A program made the translations under genes and the position numbers. Shown one piece after another: positions 1-54,440 of a DNA stretch of 64,000 nt. Positions within the stretch are counted from its first letter, which is position 1, and every line of letters starts with the position of its first letter. Below the pieces are notes generated by a model. It was not told where the DNA came from, did no database searches, and saw only the letters and a list, made by a program, of their open reading frames with translations. The stretch is from Hyphomicrobiales bacterium (lineage in GTDB: Bacteria; Pseudomonadota; Alphaproteobacteria; Rhizobiales; Devosiaceae), in assembly GCA_004144345.1 (NCBI GenBank), contig SEEL01000004.1, positions 1 to 64,000 of the forward strand. Reading direction: 5' to 3'.

Positions 1-272
1 CGAACTGCCCAGTTCCAGCATGATCGCGCGCCGCATCGGCACCTATGCGCTGGTGCTTGTCGCGAGCCCCGCCTTCATCGCCCGCGAAGGCGCCCCGGCG
101 CATCCCGGCGATCTCGCCAGTGCCCGGTGCCTCCTCAACCTCAACATGTCGCCGCGCAACCGCTGGCCGTTCAGCCGGGGCGCCTTCGCGGGCGATGAAG
201 GCGGGGCTCGCGACAAGCACCAGCGCATAGGTGCCGATGCGGCGCGCGATCATGCTGGAACTGGGCAGTTCG
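1..272. repeat. Perfect inverted repeat (98-bp arms) at the window edge
   Basis: Bases 1-98 are the exact reverse complement of 175-272, separated by a 76-base spacer (99-174). The left arm is cut by the window start, so the palindrome probably continues outside. Both arms code for the same stretch of a LysR substrate-binding domain in opposite directions. The spacer is the natural continuation of the left arm, because the plus-strand LysR frame runs on through it. This is the geometry of a fold-back (hairpin) chimera from amplification, library preparation or assembly, or of a genuine inverted duplication. Confidence 0.95.
2..175 (+). pseudogene. LysR-family regulator, duplicated internal fragment
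   Basis: The plus strand encodes 58 residues of a LysR-type substrate-binding domain in one open frame. It starts at the ELPSSS segment, runs through VASPAFIAREGAP and ends in RNRWPFS, a phrase typical of the region about 200 residues into LysR regulators. The first third repeats residues of the minus-strand LysR gene exactly, and the rest is what that gene should encode next. It is therefore the missing middle of the neighbouring gene in inverted orientation, not a separate gene. Confidence 0.75.
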
Positions 273-709
273 CCGATGCGGACGGCGAAATCAAAGCCGT
301 CGGCGATGAGGTCCATGCGCCGGTCGGAGAGCACCATCTCGACCGTCACGGCCGGATTGGCGCTCTGGAAACGGGCGACGATCTCGGCGAGGCGCGAGAC
401 GCCGAGGGTGGCGGGGCCGGTCATGCGGATGCGGCCTTCGAGGCGGCCGGGGGCGCTGCTCATCGCGTCGTCGAGCTCGGCAGCGGCATCGAGCACGGTT
501 TCGGCGTGGCGGAGGAAGGCATCGCCGGCTTCGGTGAGGCGCTGCGCCCGCGTGGTGCGCTCGATCAGGCGGGTGCCGTAATGCGCCTCGAGGGCCTGGA
601 TGCGGCGGCCGATCATCGCCGGGGTGACGCCAAGCGCCCGCGCCGCCGCGGCAAAGCTGCCGGTGCGGACGGCGGTGACAAAGGTTTCGAGCGCGTCGAG
701 ATCAGCCAT
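175..709 (-). CDS. LysR-family transcriptional regulator, N-terminal part
   Basis: The start is ATG at 709 (MADLDALETFVTAV). The first 60 residues form the LysR winged HTH (SFAAAARALGVTPAMIGRRIQALE), followed by the linker and the start of the effector-binding domain up to REGAP. Native sequence stops at 175, where the inverted repeat begins. The frame stays open to the window edge, but the sequence there is an artificial antisense fusion. The gene is divergent from the oxidoreductase at 818, the usual LysR arrangement, with a T-N11-A type palindrome between them. It probably regulates that neighbour (inference). The intact protein would be about 300 residues. Confidence 0.8.
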
Positions 710-2183: not shown

Positions 2184-2936
2184 TTGTCTGAATTTATCGA
2201 TGCCGGCGGTCGCCCGATTGCCGTCGAACGCCGCTCCGGCCGGGCCCCGGGCCTGTTCTGGCTGGGGGGCTTCCGCTCCGACATGACCGGCTCCAAAGCC
2301 ATGGCGCTCGACCGCTTCGGCGCCGAACACTCCCTGGCGGTGACCCGTTTCGACTATTCCGGCCATGGCAGCTCGGGCGGCGACTTCAATGAGGGCACGA
2401 TCAGCCGCTGGCTCGAGGAGGCGCTGGCGGTGTTCGGAACGACCACGGGCCCGCAGATCGTCATCGGCTCGTCGATGGGCGGCTGGCTGGCGCTGCTCCT
2501 GATCCGCGAACTGCGGCGGCGGGGCGACAGCCGGGTGTTCGGGCTGATCCTGATTGCGCCCGCCACCGACATGACCGAGCTGATGCTGGCGCAGATGCCC
2601 AAGAAATATCGGAAACTCCTCGACCAGCAGGGCTTCGTCGAGGAACCCTCCGCCTATTCAGCCGAGCCCTATCGCATCAACAAGGCGCTGATCGAGGACG
2701 GGGCGCAGCATCTGCTGTTCGGCCGCGCCATCGAGACGGGCTGCCCGGTGACGATCCTGCAGGGCGCGCGCGACAAGGACGTGCCCAAGGAACATGCGCT
2801 GAAACTGGTGCAGCATCTGGTCAACGACCCCGTGACCTTCACGCTGGTGCCCGATGGCGACCACCGGCTGAGTCGCGACGAGGATCTGGCCCTGCTCGGC
2901 CGGACCATCGAGGGGCTGCTGGCGCATTACTCGTAG
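2184..2936 (+). CDS. Alpha/beta hydrolase
   Basis: This 250-residue protein starts at TTG 2184, six bases after an AAGGAA ribosome site; the frame is open further upstream but lacks a good start. It has the alpha/beta hydrolase layout: an early strand (LFWLGGFRSDMTGSKA), DYSGHGSSGG, the nucleophile elbow GSSMGG (Ser), the acid region (ILQGARDKDVP) and a late His (PDGDHRLSRDED). The family includes small esterases and peptidases, and the substrate cannot be predicted. It is divergent from infC and its end overlaps the convergent adhesin gene by 10 bases. Confidence 0.85.
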   Translation: MSEFIDAGGRPIAVERRSGRAPGLFWLGGFRSDMTGSKAMALDRFGAEHSLAVTRFDYSGHGSSGGDFNEGTISRWLEEALAVFGTTTGPQIVIGSSMGGWLALLLIRELRRRGDSRVFGLILIAPATDMTELMLAQMPKKYRKLLDQQGFVEEPSAYSAEPYRINKALIEDGAQHLLFGRAIETGCPVTILQGARDKDVPKEHALKLVQHLVNDPVTFTLVPDGDHRLSRDEDLALLGRTIEGLLAHYS

Positions 2937-3856
2937 AACAGCGTCACCACCACGGTGTCGGTATAGGCGCCCGTCGCGGCCTGTTGCGGCGGGATGCGGC
3001 CATAGACGGAGTATTCGTGCGTCTCGCCGTCGCCATCGCCGGTGACCATGTCGGCGTCATCCATGCCCCAGCGGGAAGTGCGCTCGGCATTGGAGTAGAG
3101 ATCGTAGCGCACGCTGTTGTCGCCCGCGACCAGACGGCGGTTCGCCGGATCGCCCGCGCCGCCGCCATCGATGGCGATGCCGTAGCCCGTGCCGGCGGTG
3201 CAGATGAGGTCGAGGCCGGTCTCGGCGTCGATATTGTCGCCGATGCGACCGGTGGTGCCGAAGCTGAGGTCGCTGGTTTCGAGGCGGCAATTGGCGACGA
3301 TGGCGGCATCGACCGAGAAGCTGGCATTCGCCACGGAGGCGCCGCTCAGGCTGGCGCAATCGTGGTCGCCCTCGTCATAGGTGAAGGCGACGTCGGTGGC
3401 GCTGAAGCCGGCATGGTAGGTGCCAACGGGTGCGGTGGCCTGGCCGCCCGGCACTACGGCGTGGAGCGTCGCCTCGCCGGTGGCGCTGCCATCGGTGACA
3501 TTCAGCGTGAAGCGATTGGGCTGGCCGAGCGCCGGTGTGCCGCTGCTGCCCCAGGCCACACCGCCGCTCGAAGACGTGAGGAAGCCGAAGGCCAACTCGT
3601 CGGGTCCGGAGCGGGCGAGGCGGTAGCTGCCCGCTATGCCGCCATCGCCGGCGCCGATATGGCCACAGACCGTGATAGTGCTTTCCGTTGCACCGTCGCA
3701 CTGGATGGTGATCTCGGAGGTCGAGGTCTTCTCGGCATTGCCGATGGCGTCCACATCGCCCAGATCGATGTCGCCGATATCGACCGAGCAGATGGCCGCC
3801 TGCGCCGCCGGAACGGACAGCAGGATCAGCGTTGTCACCAGCAGGATGCGCAGCAC
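2927..3856 (-). CDS. Spore-coat-U domain protein with two SCPU domains (putative tip adhesin)
   Basis: I place the start at GTG 3856, giving 309 residues, because it follows an AAGGG site and begins directly with a signal peptide (VLRILLVTTLILLSVPAAQA). The ATG at 3901 would add a non-signal extension and overlap the usher by 29 bases. Two beta-rich SCPU-like domains follow, each with paired cysteines. The second (ANCRLETSDLSFG...TVVVTLFYE) is the canonical one. Such two-domain proteins act as surface or tip subunits in chaperone-usher systems of the archaic sigma class. It is last in the cluster, directly after the usher. Confidence 0.8.
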   Translation of the reverse strand: MLRILLVTTLILLSVPAAQAAICSVDIGDIDLGDVDAIGNAEKTSTSEITIQCDGATESTITVCGHIGAGDGGIAGSYRLARSGPDELAFGFLTSSSGGVAWGSSGTPALGQPNRFTLNVTDGSATGEATLHAVVPGGQATAPVGTYHAGFSATDVAFTYDEGDHDCASLSGASVANASFSVDAAIVANCRLETSDLSFGTTGRIGDNIDAETGLDLICTAGTGYGIAIDGGGAGDPANRRLVAGDNSVRYDLYSNAERTSRWGMDDADMVTGDGDGETHEYSVYGRIPPQQAATGAYTDTVVVTLFYE

Positions 3857-3872
3857 GGGCTTGCCCTTGGAG

Positions 3873-6419
3873 CTAGACGGGAAGGCAGACGATATCGGCA
3901 ATGCTCACGAGATTGCTACCCTCGTCGGCATAGGGGATCTCGGCAATGCAGCTGCCGCCATCGGCGAGTGCGATGGTCGCCACATTGTCGGCGCCGAGCC
4001 CTTCGAGCAGCGCTTCGCCATCATAGCCGACGGTGAATTCGCCGCCGCCATCGCCGATGCTGCCGGTGCTGGCGAGCGGCAGGAATTCGCCGGCGGCATC
4101 GCGGAAGCTGACCAGCGCCGTGCCGCCCGAACTGTGCTTGCCGAAGCGCACGACGACGCCCGAACCTGCCGCCGGAATGGCGATGGCCGTGGTGTTCTCG
4201 ACCATGAGGTCGAGTGGCAAATTGGTGGGGTCGATTGAAATGCGGTTCTTCTCATAGGCAGAGAGGCCGGGGACCAGCAGCTTGCCATTGGCGCCGGTGA
4301 CGCCCACCGGACGGTTCTGGTAGAACACCGGTATATTCGGCGCGCCCACATCGACGATGGCGAAGGCATCCCTGATGCGGTTGGCGATAAACAAGCCGCC
4401 ATCGGCCGCGACGACCGCACCGCTCATCTGCGCATTGAGCGTGGTGCGCGCGTCGCGATGGGTGAGCCGGCCGCGCACGCTCGCCACCGGCAGCTTGGTG
4501 CGCACGGTTGCGGCGTAACTGGAGGATTTGCCCTGCTCGGTGTTGAGCAGCCAGCCGACATCGCCCACTTCGCTGCCGCCGCCATTGCCGAGGCTGGCAG
4601 TGAGCACGGTGCCGGTGTCGGTCTGCCGCATCGAGGCGCGGGTGGACAGATTGTTGCCCAGCGGCATCCACAGGCCCAGCGACGCGCCATAGCGGCCGCT
4701 CTTGAGGTCGGCATAGGCGGAAGCGGAGCCGCTGCCGCCGAACAGTTTCTGTCCGTAGCTCGCGGCAATGAGCTGCGCCGGATCGCCCGAGGCAGGTTCG
4801 AGATGCGTATAGCTGAGGCTGGCGCGGCCGCCATTCTCGAACGGCATCGGCAGCGACAGCGACAATTGGTAGAGCGAGGACGGCGTGCCGCTGCTGCGAT
4901 CGGTGATGCCGGGCGCCGTGTAGGACGCGATGTCCTCGAAGCGCCCGAAGCTTTTCTGGGCGCGGGCGCCGACCGCAACATTGCCGAAGCTCAGCTGCAG
5001 CGAGCCGGTAACCTGCGCGCCTGTCGCTTCGGCGGTCTTGCTGGCGGCGACCGAGAACTGGCCGATGCCGAGCCGGCCGAGCGTGGCGACAACGCCGCTG
5101 CCGGCGCTGATGAGGTCGAGGCCGCCTTCGGCGTGGCCTTCCCAGGTCAGCCAGTCGGTGACGCCGGCGCGGATGCTGCCCGAGCCCATCAGGCGGCGGT
5201 CATAGGTGTCGGTATTGGTGCCGAAGCCGGTGCGGGCAAAGCCGATCTCGGCCGAGTAATCGAACAGCCCCGGCTTCAGCAGCTGGGGCGAGGCGAAATA
5301 GTCGGCCTTGGTGGTGACCTCGTTGCCGGCGGCGTCCTTGACCACCAGTTCGATCGTTCCGGCGCCGGTGACGATGGGCAGGTTGGCGATCTCGAACGGC
5401 CCCTCGAGCACTTCGCCCGAATAGCGGTTCTTGTCGTTGATGTAGATCTCGACGGCGGAGGGCAAAGCGGCGCTGCCGGTGATCGAGGGCACCGGATAGG
5501 TGACGATGTCGGAGCGGAGGCCGAAATCGTTCTGCATCTGGATGCCGCCGAGCCGCGTCGGCCGCGTCCAGCCCAGCGCGCTCGTGACGATGTCGCCCGC
5601 CCGCCAGGTGCGCATCGCCGCCGGATCGGAGGTGGACCAGGTGGTGTTGAGGCGGCGGAAGTTCAGCGGCTCGGTCTGCACCGAAAAGCTCTGTTCGAGC
5701 AGGCCGAAGGGGCCGAACAGCTTGGCCTCGAACGACCCGGCAGGCGCTGGCGCCGTGAACGCCCCGCCATTGGTCACGCTGGCGCTGGCATAGATGTCGT
5801 AATTGAGGACGGCGCCGAACGTGGTGGTCGGGCCATCGGGATCGTCTTCGGCAGGAGCGGCTTTCGACCTGCGGGCCCTCGCATCGATGATCTGACGCGC
5901 GCGCGCCGTTTCGGGCGCGAAGAAATCGATGGTCTGCTCGATTTCGTCGAACACATAGGTGACATCGGGCAAATCGGCGAGCGCGATGCGCGCCTCGGGT
6001 GACGGGTCGCCGGTCTGAGGTGCCATAAGGCCGATTGCGGCAAGGTCGCCGCGCGTCGCCGAGAGGGTACCATCGGCCCCGTGATGGATGGCGACGATCT
6101 TCTTGCGGCGCTGGCCGTTGATCAGGACATCGAGCCAGAGATCGTATTCCAGCGGCTCCTCGATCAGCAACTGGTCCGCCGCCGCATCGGTCTCGGCTCC
6201 AGCTTCGGGAGCGGCGTCGATATTGGCGAAGGGATCGATGGTGGGCGTCACGGTTTCGGGCGTCACGGTCTCCATCGCCAGATCGGCAAACGGATCAACC
6301 GGCTCGTCGAGAATCTGCAAAGCGGTCGCGGCCGTCGGCAGGACCATCAGTCCAGCCGCGGCCAACGCCAGCCAAAAATGTGCTCGTGCTCTGCTACTCG
6401 AAGTAGAGCGGGATTGCAT
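3873..6419 (-). CDS. Outer-membrane usher protein of a chaperone-usher (SCPU-type) pilus
   Basis: This 848-residue protein opens with a signal peptide (WLALAAAGLMVLPTAATA). It then has an acidic linker, an N-terminal usher domain around residues 85-180 (DLWLDVLINGQRR), a long beta-barrel region with alternating short strands (for example ITGSAALPSAVEIYINDKNR and DRRLMGSGSIRAGVTDWLTW) and small C-terminal plug-like domains (NRPVGVTGANGKLLVPGL). Length and order fit fimbrial ushers, which thread subunits across the outer membrane. Its start overlaps the chaperone stop by 26 bases, implying translational coupling. Confidence 0.9.
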   Translation of the reverse strand: MQSRSTSSSRARAHFWLALAAAGLMVLPTAATALQILDEPVDPFADLAMETVTPETVTPTIDPFANIDAAPEAGAETDAAADQLLIEEPLEYDLWLDVLINGQRRKKIVAIHHGADGTLSATRGDLAAIGLMAPQTGDPSPEARIALADLPDVTYVFDEIEQTIDFFAPETARARQIIDARARRSKAAPAEDDPDGPTTTFGAVLNYDIYASASVTNGGAFTAPAPAGSFEAKLFGPFGLLEQSFSVQTEPLNFRRLNTTWSTSDPAAMRTWRAGDIVTSALGWTRPTRLGGIQMQNDFGLRSDIVTYPVPSITGSAALPSAVEIYINDKNRYSGEVLEGPFEIANLPIVTGAGTIELVVKDAAGNEVTTKADYFASPQLLKPGLFDYSAEIGFARTGFGTNTDTYDRRLMGSGSIRAGVTDWLTWEGHAEGGLDLISAGSGVVATLGRLGIGQFSVAASKTAEATGAQVTGSLQLSFGNVAVGARAQKSFGRFEDIASYTAPGITDRSSGTPSSLYQLSLSLPMPFENGGRASLSYTHLEPASGDPAQLIAASYGQKLFGGSGSASAYADLKSGRYGASLGLWMPLGNNLSTRASMRQTDTGTVLTASLGNGGGSEVGDVGWLLNTEQGKSSSYAATVRTKLPVASVRGRLTHRDARTTLNAQMSGAVVAADGGLFIANRIRDAFAIVDVGAPNIPVFYQNRPVGVTGANGKLLVPGLSAYEKNRISIDPTNLPLDLMVENTTAIAIPAAGSGVVVRFGKHSSGGTALVSFRDAAGEFLPLASTGSIGDGGGEFTVGYDGEALLEGLGADNVATIALADGGSCIAEIPYADEGSNLVSIADIVCLPV

Positions 6420-6819
6420 GACGCACGAGGACGTTCACCACGCCTGCCTTCTGCGCCTTGGGATCGGGTAGCTGATCCACAAGCACGCGGTAGGCTTCAC
6501 GCTCGGTGATTGGAGTCGTCGCGACCCGCACGATGCGGATCAGATTTTCGGCGCCCGGCTTCAGCGAACTGATCGGGGGGCTGACCACGACGTCCTTGGT
6601 CGGGGTCAGAATGTCCTCGCCATTCTTGCGGGTCCAGCGGAAGACGCGGACCTGGATCTTCACCGCGGCCTTGTCGGTGTTCCATACCCGCAAGGTCGTG
6701 GTGGGTTGTGCGGCCGAGGCCTCGAGCCGCACCGGCGAGACGCGGAGACTAGCCGCGCCTACGTCGGTGACAGCAAGGCAGGCAAAGGCAAGCATCGCGG
6801 CAATAACGCGAAAACGCAT
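6394..6819 (-). CDS. Periplasmic pilus chaperone, N-terminal domain only
   Basis: This 141-residue protein starts at ATG 6819 with a signal peptide (MRFRVIAAMLAFACLAVTDVGA). The Ig-like PapD N-terminal domain follows: ASLRVSPVRLEA, VRVFRWTRKNGED, and the F1-G1 strand region ending VRHAIPLYFE before a stop. Usual chaperones of this class are about 230-250 residues with a second Ig-like domain. Here the reading frame stops where domain 2 should begin, and the usher starts immediately, leaving no room for it. It is either a functional minimal chaperone or one that has lost domain 2 by deletion. Confidence 0.8.
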   Translation of the reverse strand: MRFRVIAAMLAFACLAVTDVGAASLRVSPVRLEASAAQPTTTLRVWNTDKAAVKIQVRVFRWTRKNGEDILTPTKDVVVSPPISSLKPGAENLIRIVRVATTPITEREAYRVLVDQLPDPKAQKAGVVNVLVRHAIPLYFE

Positions 6820-6856
6820 AGTCAGAAATTCCCCCGAATAGACTGTGCTGGACGGC

Positions 6857-7390
6857 TTACGGCAGGCCCGCGCCGTACCAGATGGTCGCCGTGATGACGT
6901 CGGCATACTCGCCGGCCGGGGCGTTCTGGTGATCCTCGATCCGTCCGTAGATCGTGTGCTCTTCCGCCTCGCCCAGGGCGCTGTCCGAGTCGACGGTGTC
7001 GGTGCCGATCGTGTGGCCCCATTCGGTATCGAAGGTGCCGTCCGAATAGAGCTGGTAAGCCAGCACGTCATCGGCCTGGCCGCCGTCCAGCTTGAGCTTG
7101 CGGTTGGCGATATCGGTGCCGCCGGCATTGACGCCGGCGCTGAGGGCGATGGCGTAGGCGGAGTCACGCGTGCATTCGATGGTGATGGTCGTCGAGGCGG
7201 TGACGTCCTCGTCAACGATGCCGGTGTCGCCGAAGGCCAGCGGCTCGGTTGCGAGGACGCAATCGTCCTCGACCGTCAGGCTGACGGCGATCGTGCCGGT
7301 ATCGGAATCCGTTTCCACCCAGGCGGCGAAGGCCGGCGAGCAAAGCGCGGTCGTGGCAAGGATTGCCGCTGCGATTCTGTAGCGATTCAT
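6857..7390 (-). CDS. Spore-coat-U domain pilin-like major subunit
   Basis: This 177-residue exported protein starts at ATG 7390 with signal peptide MNRYRIAAAILATTALCSPAFA, then one SCPU domain. It has a Cys pair (DDCVLATEPL, IECTRDSAYA), the conserved DLDFG-like turn, YQLYSDGTFDTEWG and the C-terminal TATIWYGAGLP. It heads the minus-strand cluster subunit-chaperone-usher-adhesin and is probably the abundant structural subunit. Homologous proteins form thin surface fibres used in attachment and biofilm. It is only 37 bases from the chaperone start, so the four genes are probably one transcript. Confidence 0.85.
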   Translation of the reverse strand: MNRYRIAAAILATTALCSPAFAAWVETDSDTGTIAVSLTVEDDCVLATEPLAFGDTGIVDEDVTASTTITIECTRDSAYAIALSAGVNAGGTDIANRKLKLDGGQADDVLAYQLYSDGTFDTEWGHTIGTDTVDSDSALGEAEEHTIYGRIEDHQNAPAGEYADVITATIWYGAGLP

Positions 7391-7726
7391 GAGGTTCTCA
7401 CTTCCCTGTTTGACGCAGATCGGTGAGCCCCCATTGGCGCGATCGGCGGAAGGGCGGGGAGTACTTTCTGTATCCGTGGCCCATCGCATCGACGCTACGG
7501 CCGGTCACCATAACAATTTGTGTATGACTTGAAGTATAGCGGGAGGCCAATACTTGCGGTTAACCAATCACGGAGTCAGGTCGTTAACCATAAGTACTGT
7601 CGAATGTCCTTGCGGTCCTAGGGCGAAGAGTCAATCGCCACGGCGCCAGAGTCGTCGCGTTCTGCGAAGCCGCTCATATCTGGGTAACTCTATGGCAAAG
7701 AGGGGCGGCGTTTACTTCTTGCCGCG
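7391..7726. other. Intergenic leader of the chaperone-usher cluster
   Basis: These 336 bases carry no convincing gene and are more AT-rich than their surroundings. On the minus strand a TATACT box lies near 7533-7538, but its -35 partner is weak. Two copies of a GTTAACC palindromic core lie at 7559-7565 and 7583-7589 and could bind a regulator. The promoter of the pilus operon must be here or just inside the first gene. Confidence 0.4.
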
Positions 7727-40578: not shown

Positions 40579-41074
40579 GGACGAGCCCAGGGTCTTGCGT
40601 GTGCTGGCGATGCTGGAGCCTCGCCCGCGGCGCGTGAATGGCGGCTGAACGGGGCATGGCCCGCCCCACCCACCGGCTGCGCCGGTCCCCCCTCCCCGAT
40701 GGGGAGGGATGGGCTCCACTCAAGGTGCATCACGGTGCCCCCAGTCGGGTCTCCCTCCTCGGCGCGCAGCGCTGGGGAGGGGGGACCGGCGCAGCTGGTG
40801 GGTGCGGCAGGCCTGTCCCCTGCGTCATTCTCGCGACGGGGAGCGTGGCTCCGCTCAAGCGGCCGCCCCCACCACCGCTACGCGGTCCCCCTCCCCCGTT
40901 GCACGGGGGAGGACATGCCGACTGCGCAGTCGGCACCCTTATCCTCCCCCGCTTGCGGGGGAGGGGGACCGCCTTAGGCGGTGGTGGGGGCGGTCGCAGG
41001 ACTCGATAGGTGAGAGGGCATCACCCAGGGGCACTACTCGCCCGCAAGGGGCAGGGTAGGCATCGTGCAGCGCA
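40579..41074. repeat. Intergenic palindromic repeat block A
   Basis: These 496 bases hold no gene. Bases 40661-40803 are a GC-rich element repeated with the same spacing at 54251-54397. Bases 40866-41000 form a second imperfect palindrome, beginning CCCCCACCACCG and ending CGGTGGTGGGGG, with internal hairpins; a relative lies at 60486-60650. These look like dispersed, non-coding palindromic repeats of this genome. Confidence 0.75.
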
Positions 41075-54089: not shown

Positions 54090-54440
54090 ATGTCATCCCC
54101 GCGAAAGCGGGGACCTCTGTTGCGGTGGCCGGTCCCGTGAACGGAGGTTCCCGCTTTCGCGGGAATGACCCGTTGGATGAGGGTGGGGCAAGACACAGTG
54201 CTGACTGCCCTGGATTTCCGCCTGCGCGGGAATGACGCGGTGGGTGTGGCTCGCCCCACCCACCGGCTGCGCCGGTCCCCCCTCCCCGGTGGGGAGGGAG
54301 GGGCTCCACCCAAGGTGCATCATGGTGCCAGCAGTCAGGTATCCCTCCTCGGCGCGCAGCGCTGGGGAGGGGGGACCAGCCGAAGGCTGGTGGGTGGGGT
54401 GGCAATGAAACGGAGATTCCCGCTTTCGCGGGAATGAATG
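54090..54440. repeat. Intergenic palindromic repeat block B
   Basis: Four short hairpins with the theme TTCCCGCTTTCGCGGGAATGA lie at about 54092-54116, 54146-54169, 54211-54237 and 54412-54436, in both orientations. Bases 54251-54397 repeat block A (40661-40803) with identical internal spacing. These dispersed elements occur only between genes. Confidence 0.8.

Follow-up and report, generated by a model that had tools for sequence, protein, structure and literature searches.

A perfect inverted repeat cuts a LysR gene at the first base of the contig

The window analysed here is the whole stretch of 64,000 nucleotides (G000:C43:1-64000). It begins at base 1 of C43, a contig of 138,023 bp in a draft assembly of 132 contigs and 4,095,956 bases. 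The edge of the window, at which the initial annotation had described a LysR gene cut by an inverted repeat, is thus the end of a contig. The first 709 bases hold the 5′ part of a gene for a LysR-family regulator together with a repeat made of two arms and a loop:

1-99, forward strand: outer arm, a copy of the inner arm in the LysR sense orientation, starting at the first base of C43
91-99, forward strand: CGCCCCGGC, one half of an inverted pair of 9 nt that flanks the loop
100-173, forward strand: loop of 74 nt, the part of LysR that comes next after the inner arm, reversed relative to the gene at 174-709
174-182, forward strand: GCCGGGGCG, the other half of the 9-nt pair and the microhomology of the junction
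174-272, reverse strand: inner arm, continuous with the remainder of the LysR gene
174-709, reverse strand: 5′ part of the LysR-family regulator (HTH_1 and the start of LysR_substrate), truncated at the fold-back

The start codon of the LysR gene (709, reverse strand) was set by comparison with G005, the closest relative, which carries a full LysR of 297 aa. Over 99 of 99 nt, arm 1-99 is the exact reverse complement of arm 174-272. The arms had initially been described as 98 bp long (1-98 and 175-272); their exactness stood, while the length and the coordinates turned out to be one base short per arm. The inner edge of the repeat lies at 99/174, with bases 100 (G) and 173 (A) unpaired, and its outer edge is the contig end. 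When bases 1-272 were shuffled 100 times, the longest inverted repeat obtained was 10 nt and the mean was 7.9. The contig therefore opens with a perfect inverted copy, 99 nt long, of the adjacent sequence across a short loop, which is the form that a fold-back chimera has.

The distribution of the Pfam LysR_substrate profile over this region supported the earlier claim that the spacer continues the LysR frame. Profile positions 2-61 fell on 273-724 of the reverse strand and positions 66-117 on 2-172 of the forward strand, the latter with an E-value of 1.2e-5 and 25.2 bits, below the cut-off of 28 bits. Consequently, the natural order is the inner arm, read from 272 to 174, followed by the loop, read from 100 to 173. 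The order found in the contig is the inner arm, the loop in reverse and then a reversed copy of the inner arm.

Elsewhere in the window, an usher gene (848 aa, PF00577) lies between two Spore Coat Protein U-domain proteins (PF05229) at 2927-7489, in what we take to be a chaperone-usher type pilus cluster.

The LysR gene is straight in related genomes

We searched 31 genomes, our own included, with positions 1-1400 of the window. In eleven other genomes, a match covered LysR, at least in part, and the neighbouring gene. In ten of them, all or part of 1-182 matched right beside the sequence from 174 onward, on opposite strands, at a single locus, with the inner arm and the loop together in one gene; the eleventh, G013, showed no match to the 1-182 part. 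A separate scan of genome contigs gave seven LysR genes with identities of 27-44%, none of them from a near relative. The loci of seven relatives were then retrieved and six were aligned, L046 being omitted because just 49 nt of 1-173 matched. All six aligned relatives ran from the inner arm to the loop and on into a straight continuation, without a second arm. A scan of the seven relatives' loci found LysR free of perfect inverted repeats of 20 nt or longer, and the longest inverted repeat in the 99,231 bases of these loci was 31 nt. It is thus very probable that, in the cell, inner arm, loop and C-terminus follow one another as one straight LysR gene.

An orthologous LysR C-terminus was not found in the assembly when a 94-aa piece from a relative was used as query. 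The matches were two paralogues, at 39% identity, and they were rejected as the missing part. The genes located 3′ of LysR in G005 were found on C14, in a search with 3.7 kb of G005 downstream DNA, and the similarity to G005 ended at C14:21945, some ten bases away from where the LysR stop codon would lie. C14 was likewise rejected as the site of the C-terminus, because the downstream genes are adjoined there by a different LysR-like gene, which was recognised by eye. Within C14:12000-31000 (L055), the gene order of G005 is broken near this same position, with the LysR-like gene beside the break. Since the synteny next to LysR is indeed broken in this genome, a true rearrangement may have occurred close by.

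A 9-nt inverted pair lies at the turn

After the loop, the straight gene of G005 reads GCCGGGGCG, that is, the nine bases that open the turn of the contig (174-182), and the end of the outer arm (91-99) reads CGCCCCGGC, which is their reverse complement. Taken together, these two matches make it probable, as judged from one relative, that this strain's own straight gene contained an inverted pair of 9 nt, with its halves 74 nt apart. The resulting microhomology of 9 nt is measured against G005 as the single relative, and the other five aligned relatives lacked the full nine bases of this half of the pair. Inverted pairs of 9 nt with loops of 50-200 nt are common in the window. We counted 158 of them in 274-64000, about 2.5 per kb, against an average of 75.7 over 20 mononucleotide shuffles.

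Terminal inverted repeats occur at other contig ends of the draft

Of the 125 contig ends examined, 91 could be read and the other 34 were masked. Thirteen of the 91 readable ends opened, at the terminal base, with a perfect inverted repeat of 20 nt or longer, and perfect arms of at least 40 nt from the terminal base were present in 10 of them. When loops of up to 400 were allowed, arms of at least 30 nt appeared 11 times in 1,034,111 readable bases, and 10 of these repeats were terminal. The eleventh (38 nt, on C13) lay 219 nt from an end and was the longest non-terminal repeat with such loops; interior arms of at least 40 nt were found 0 times in the same bases with the same loops. Lowering the threshold to 20 nt gave 20 inverted repeats, seven of them non-terminal, including that of C13. 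Two other drafts were used as control, with 25 readable ends and 8 more masked. One of the 25 carried a repeat, of 26 nt, and none reached 40 nt; the difference between 10/91 and 0/25 ends was not significant (p 0.12).

Seven of the 13 terminal repeats occurred at more than one place in the DNA searched and six, that of C43 included, at one place. The terminal repeats of C80 and C54 sit on dispersed repeats. The terminal repeats are therefore a mixture, and natural palindromes explain part of the pattern. Since assemblies can also break at natural palindromes, the position at a contig end does not by itself prove an artefact. An assembler word length of k=99 was considered as the cause and rejected, because the terminal arms span 22 to 111 nt and a fixed k fails to account for this range.

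Two further observations concern the assembly. Positions 40658-40826 and 54240-54402 of the window are copies of a dispersed, partly palindromic repeat, which has many copies in the genome and similar stretches in relatives of the same genus, and it also forms the start or the end of several other contigs of the draft. In addition, the end of C100 (L040) and the start of C19 (L080) share an exact overlap of 119 nt and may belong together.

Six other ends were compared with relatives. C57 alone gave a clear reading; the matches in relatives left the arms of C26, C8 and C59 unresolved. The repeat of C57 (1-159, L129) has arms of 42 nt and a loop of 75 nt and lies in a gene with DUF2207 domains. 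Four relatives were colinear with C57 from position 34 or 35. This means that about nine bases (34-42) are common to the straight sequence and to the reversed arm. In an alignment of this locus, from which L209 dropped out for lack of flanking sequence, G005 has eight of these nine turn bases. The loop stands in its native sense in C57 and is reversed in C43, and the two strands of one snap-back product give readings of the C57 type and of the C43 type.

Probable origin of the terminal repeat

The findings presented above lead us to interpret the repeat as an in vitro fold-back chimera that became the tip of a contig, and not as a feature of the genome, with a probability of about 0.88. The initial suggestion of a hairpin chimera or an assembly dead end is thus supported, though not proven, by the position of the repeat at contig base 1, by the straight gene of the relatives, by the 9-nt turn and by the similar ends found in the draft, that of C57 among them.

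The same contig would also be obtained if the strain, or part of its population, carried a real inverted duplication, the product of an in vivo template switch at the 9-nt pair, that truncates LysR and breaks the assembly. Both the lack of an orthologous LysR C-terminus in the assembly and the gene order beside LysR, which differs from that of G005, speak for such an event. However, the duplication must start exactly at the contig end, several other ends would need like events, and it is absent from the ten relatives that resolve the locus, whereas a tip made of chimeric reads needs fewer assumptions. A real duplication is therefore unlikely in our view, and we give an equally small chance to its fuller version, in which a recent duplication seeded by the 9-nt pair inactivates LysR in part or all of the population and similar fold-backs exist at other loci.

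Even less probable is a natural old inverted repeat, or an invertible segment, which stopped the short-read assembly and so led to the contig break. Such an origin accounts well for other terminal repeats of the genome, which lie in dispersed repeats also found in relatives. The repeat of C43, in contrast, lies within conserved coding sequence and at one place in the DNA searched, the relatives are without the second arm, and arms that show no single difference do not suggest age. Finally, a terminal inverted repeat at the end of a contig loosely resembles what would be read around the tip of a linear replicon that is closed by a hairpin, but hairpin telomeres are palindromic replicon ends without a large unpaired coding loop, and given an unpaired loop of 74 nt that codes for LysR, a gene that continues straight in relatives and terminal repeats on 13 of the 91 readable ends of the same draft, we attach almost no weight to this explanation.

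If the repeat is the in vitro chimera that we favour, its formation could be pictured as follows. While the DNA was amplified, or when the library ends were repaired, single-stranded DNA would fold back through pairing of the two inverted 9-nt halves, which lie 74 nt apart, and extension of the 3′ end along the same strand would give arm, loop and reversed arm. Ordinary coverage would fail at the locus, the assembler would follow the chimeric molecule, and it would halt where the chimeric reads end or re-enter known sequence, leaving a contig tip. That the molecule arose in vitro and by snap-back, that coverage failed and how the assembler came to stop are all inferred.

Three papers describe artefacts of comparable form. 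Among 475 chimeras from multiple displacement amplification (MDA), 85% were inversions, and priming took place at 2 bp or more of complementarity in 76.8% of the cases (Lasken and Stockwell 2007, PMC1855051). As outlined there, the 3′ end re-primes on a nearby complementary stretch and produces inverted joints with short complementarity, as at C43; those chimeras came from single-cell E. coli, and C43 resembles them in form (PMC1855051). In fixed samples, single strands are described to pair at short reverse-complementary stretches and to become chimeras through end repair, and a hairpin route was suggested for the chimeric fragments with short reverse complements (PMC8458033). The chimeras addressed by SimFFPE/FilterFFPE have short seeds, with many pairs 50-200 bp apart, and inverted repeats, features to which the 9-nt seed and the 74-nt loop of C43 correspond; they stem from formalin-fixed human samples and are seen at the read level, whereas C43 presents a contig tip (PMC8458033). 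Similarly, Illumina sequencing of whole-genome-amplified DNA gave fragments in which both ends had the same sequence, one of them inverted, as in C43, although these were read pairs from C. elegans and not a contig tip (PMC4060946). We noticed no paper in the literature searched that deals with fold-backs at the ends of bacterial draft contigs, although such a paper may exist.

Altogether, this case calls for caution, as a draft contig can be chimeric at its very ends. Genes, truncations or inverted repeats should not be called from bases 1-173 of the window, and the same probably holds for the tips of some other contigs in this assembly. The warning sign is a perfect inverted repeat that runs from the first base of a contig and lies inside a gene that is straight in relatives.
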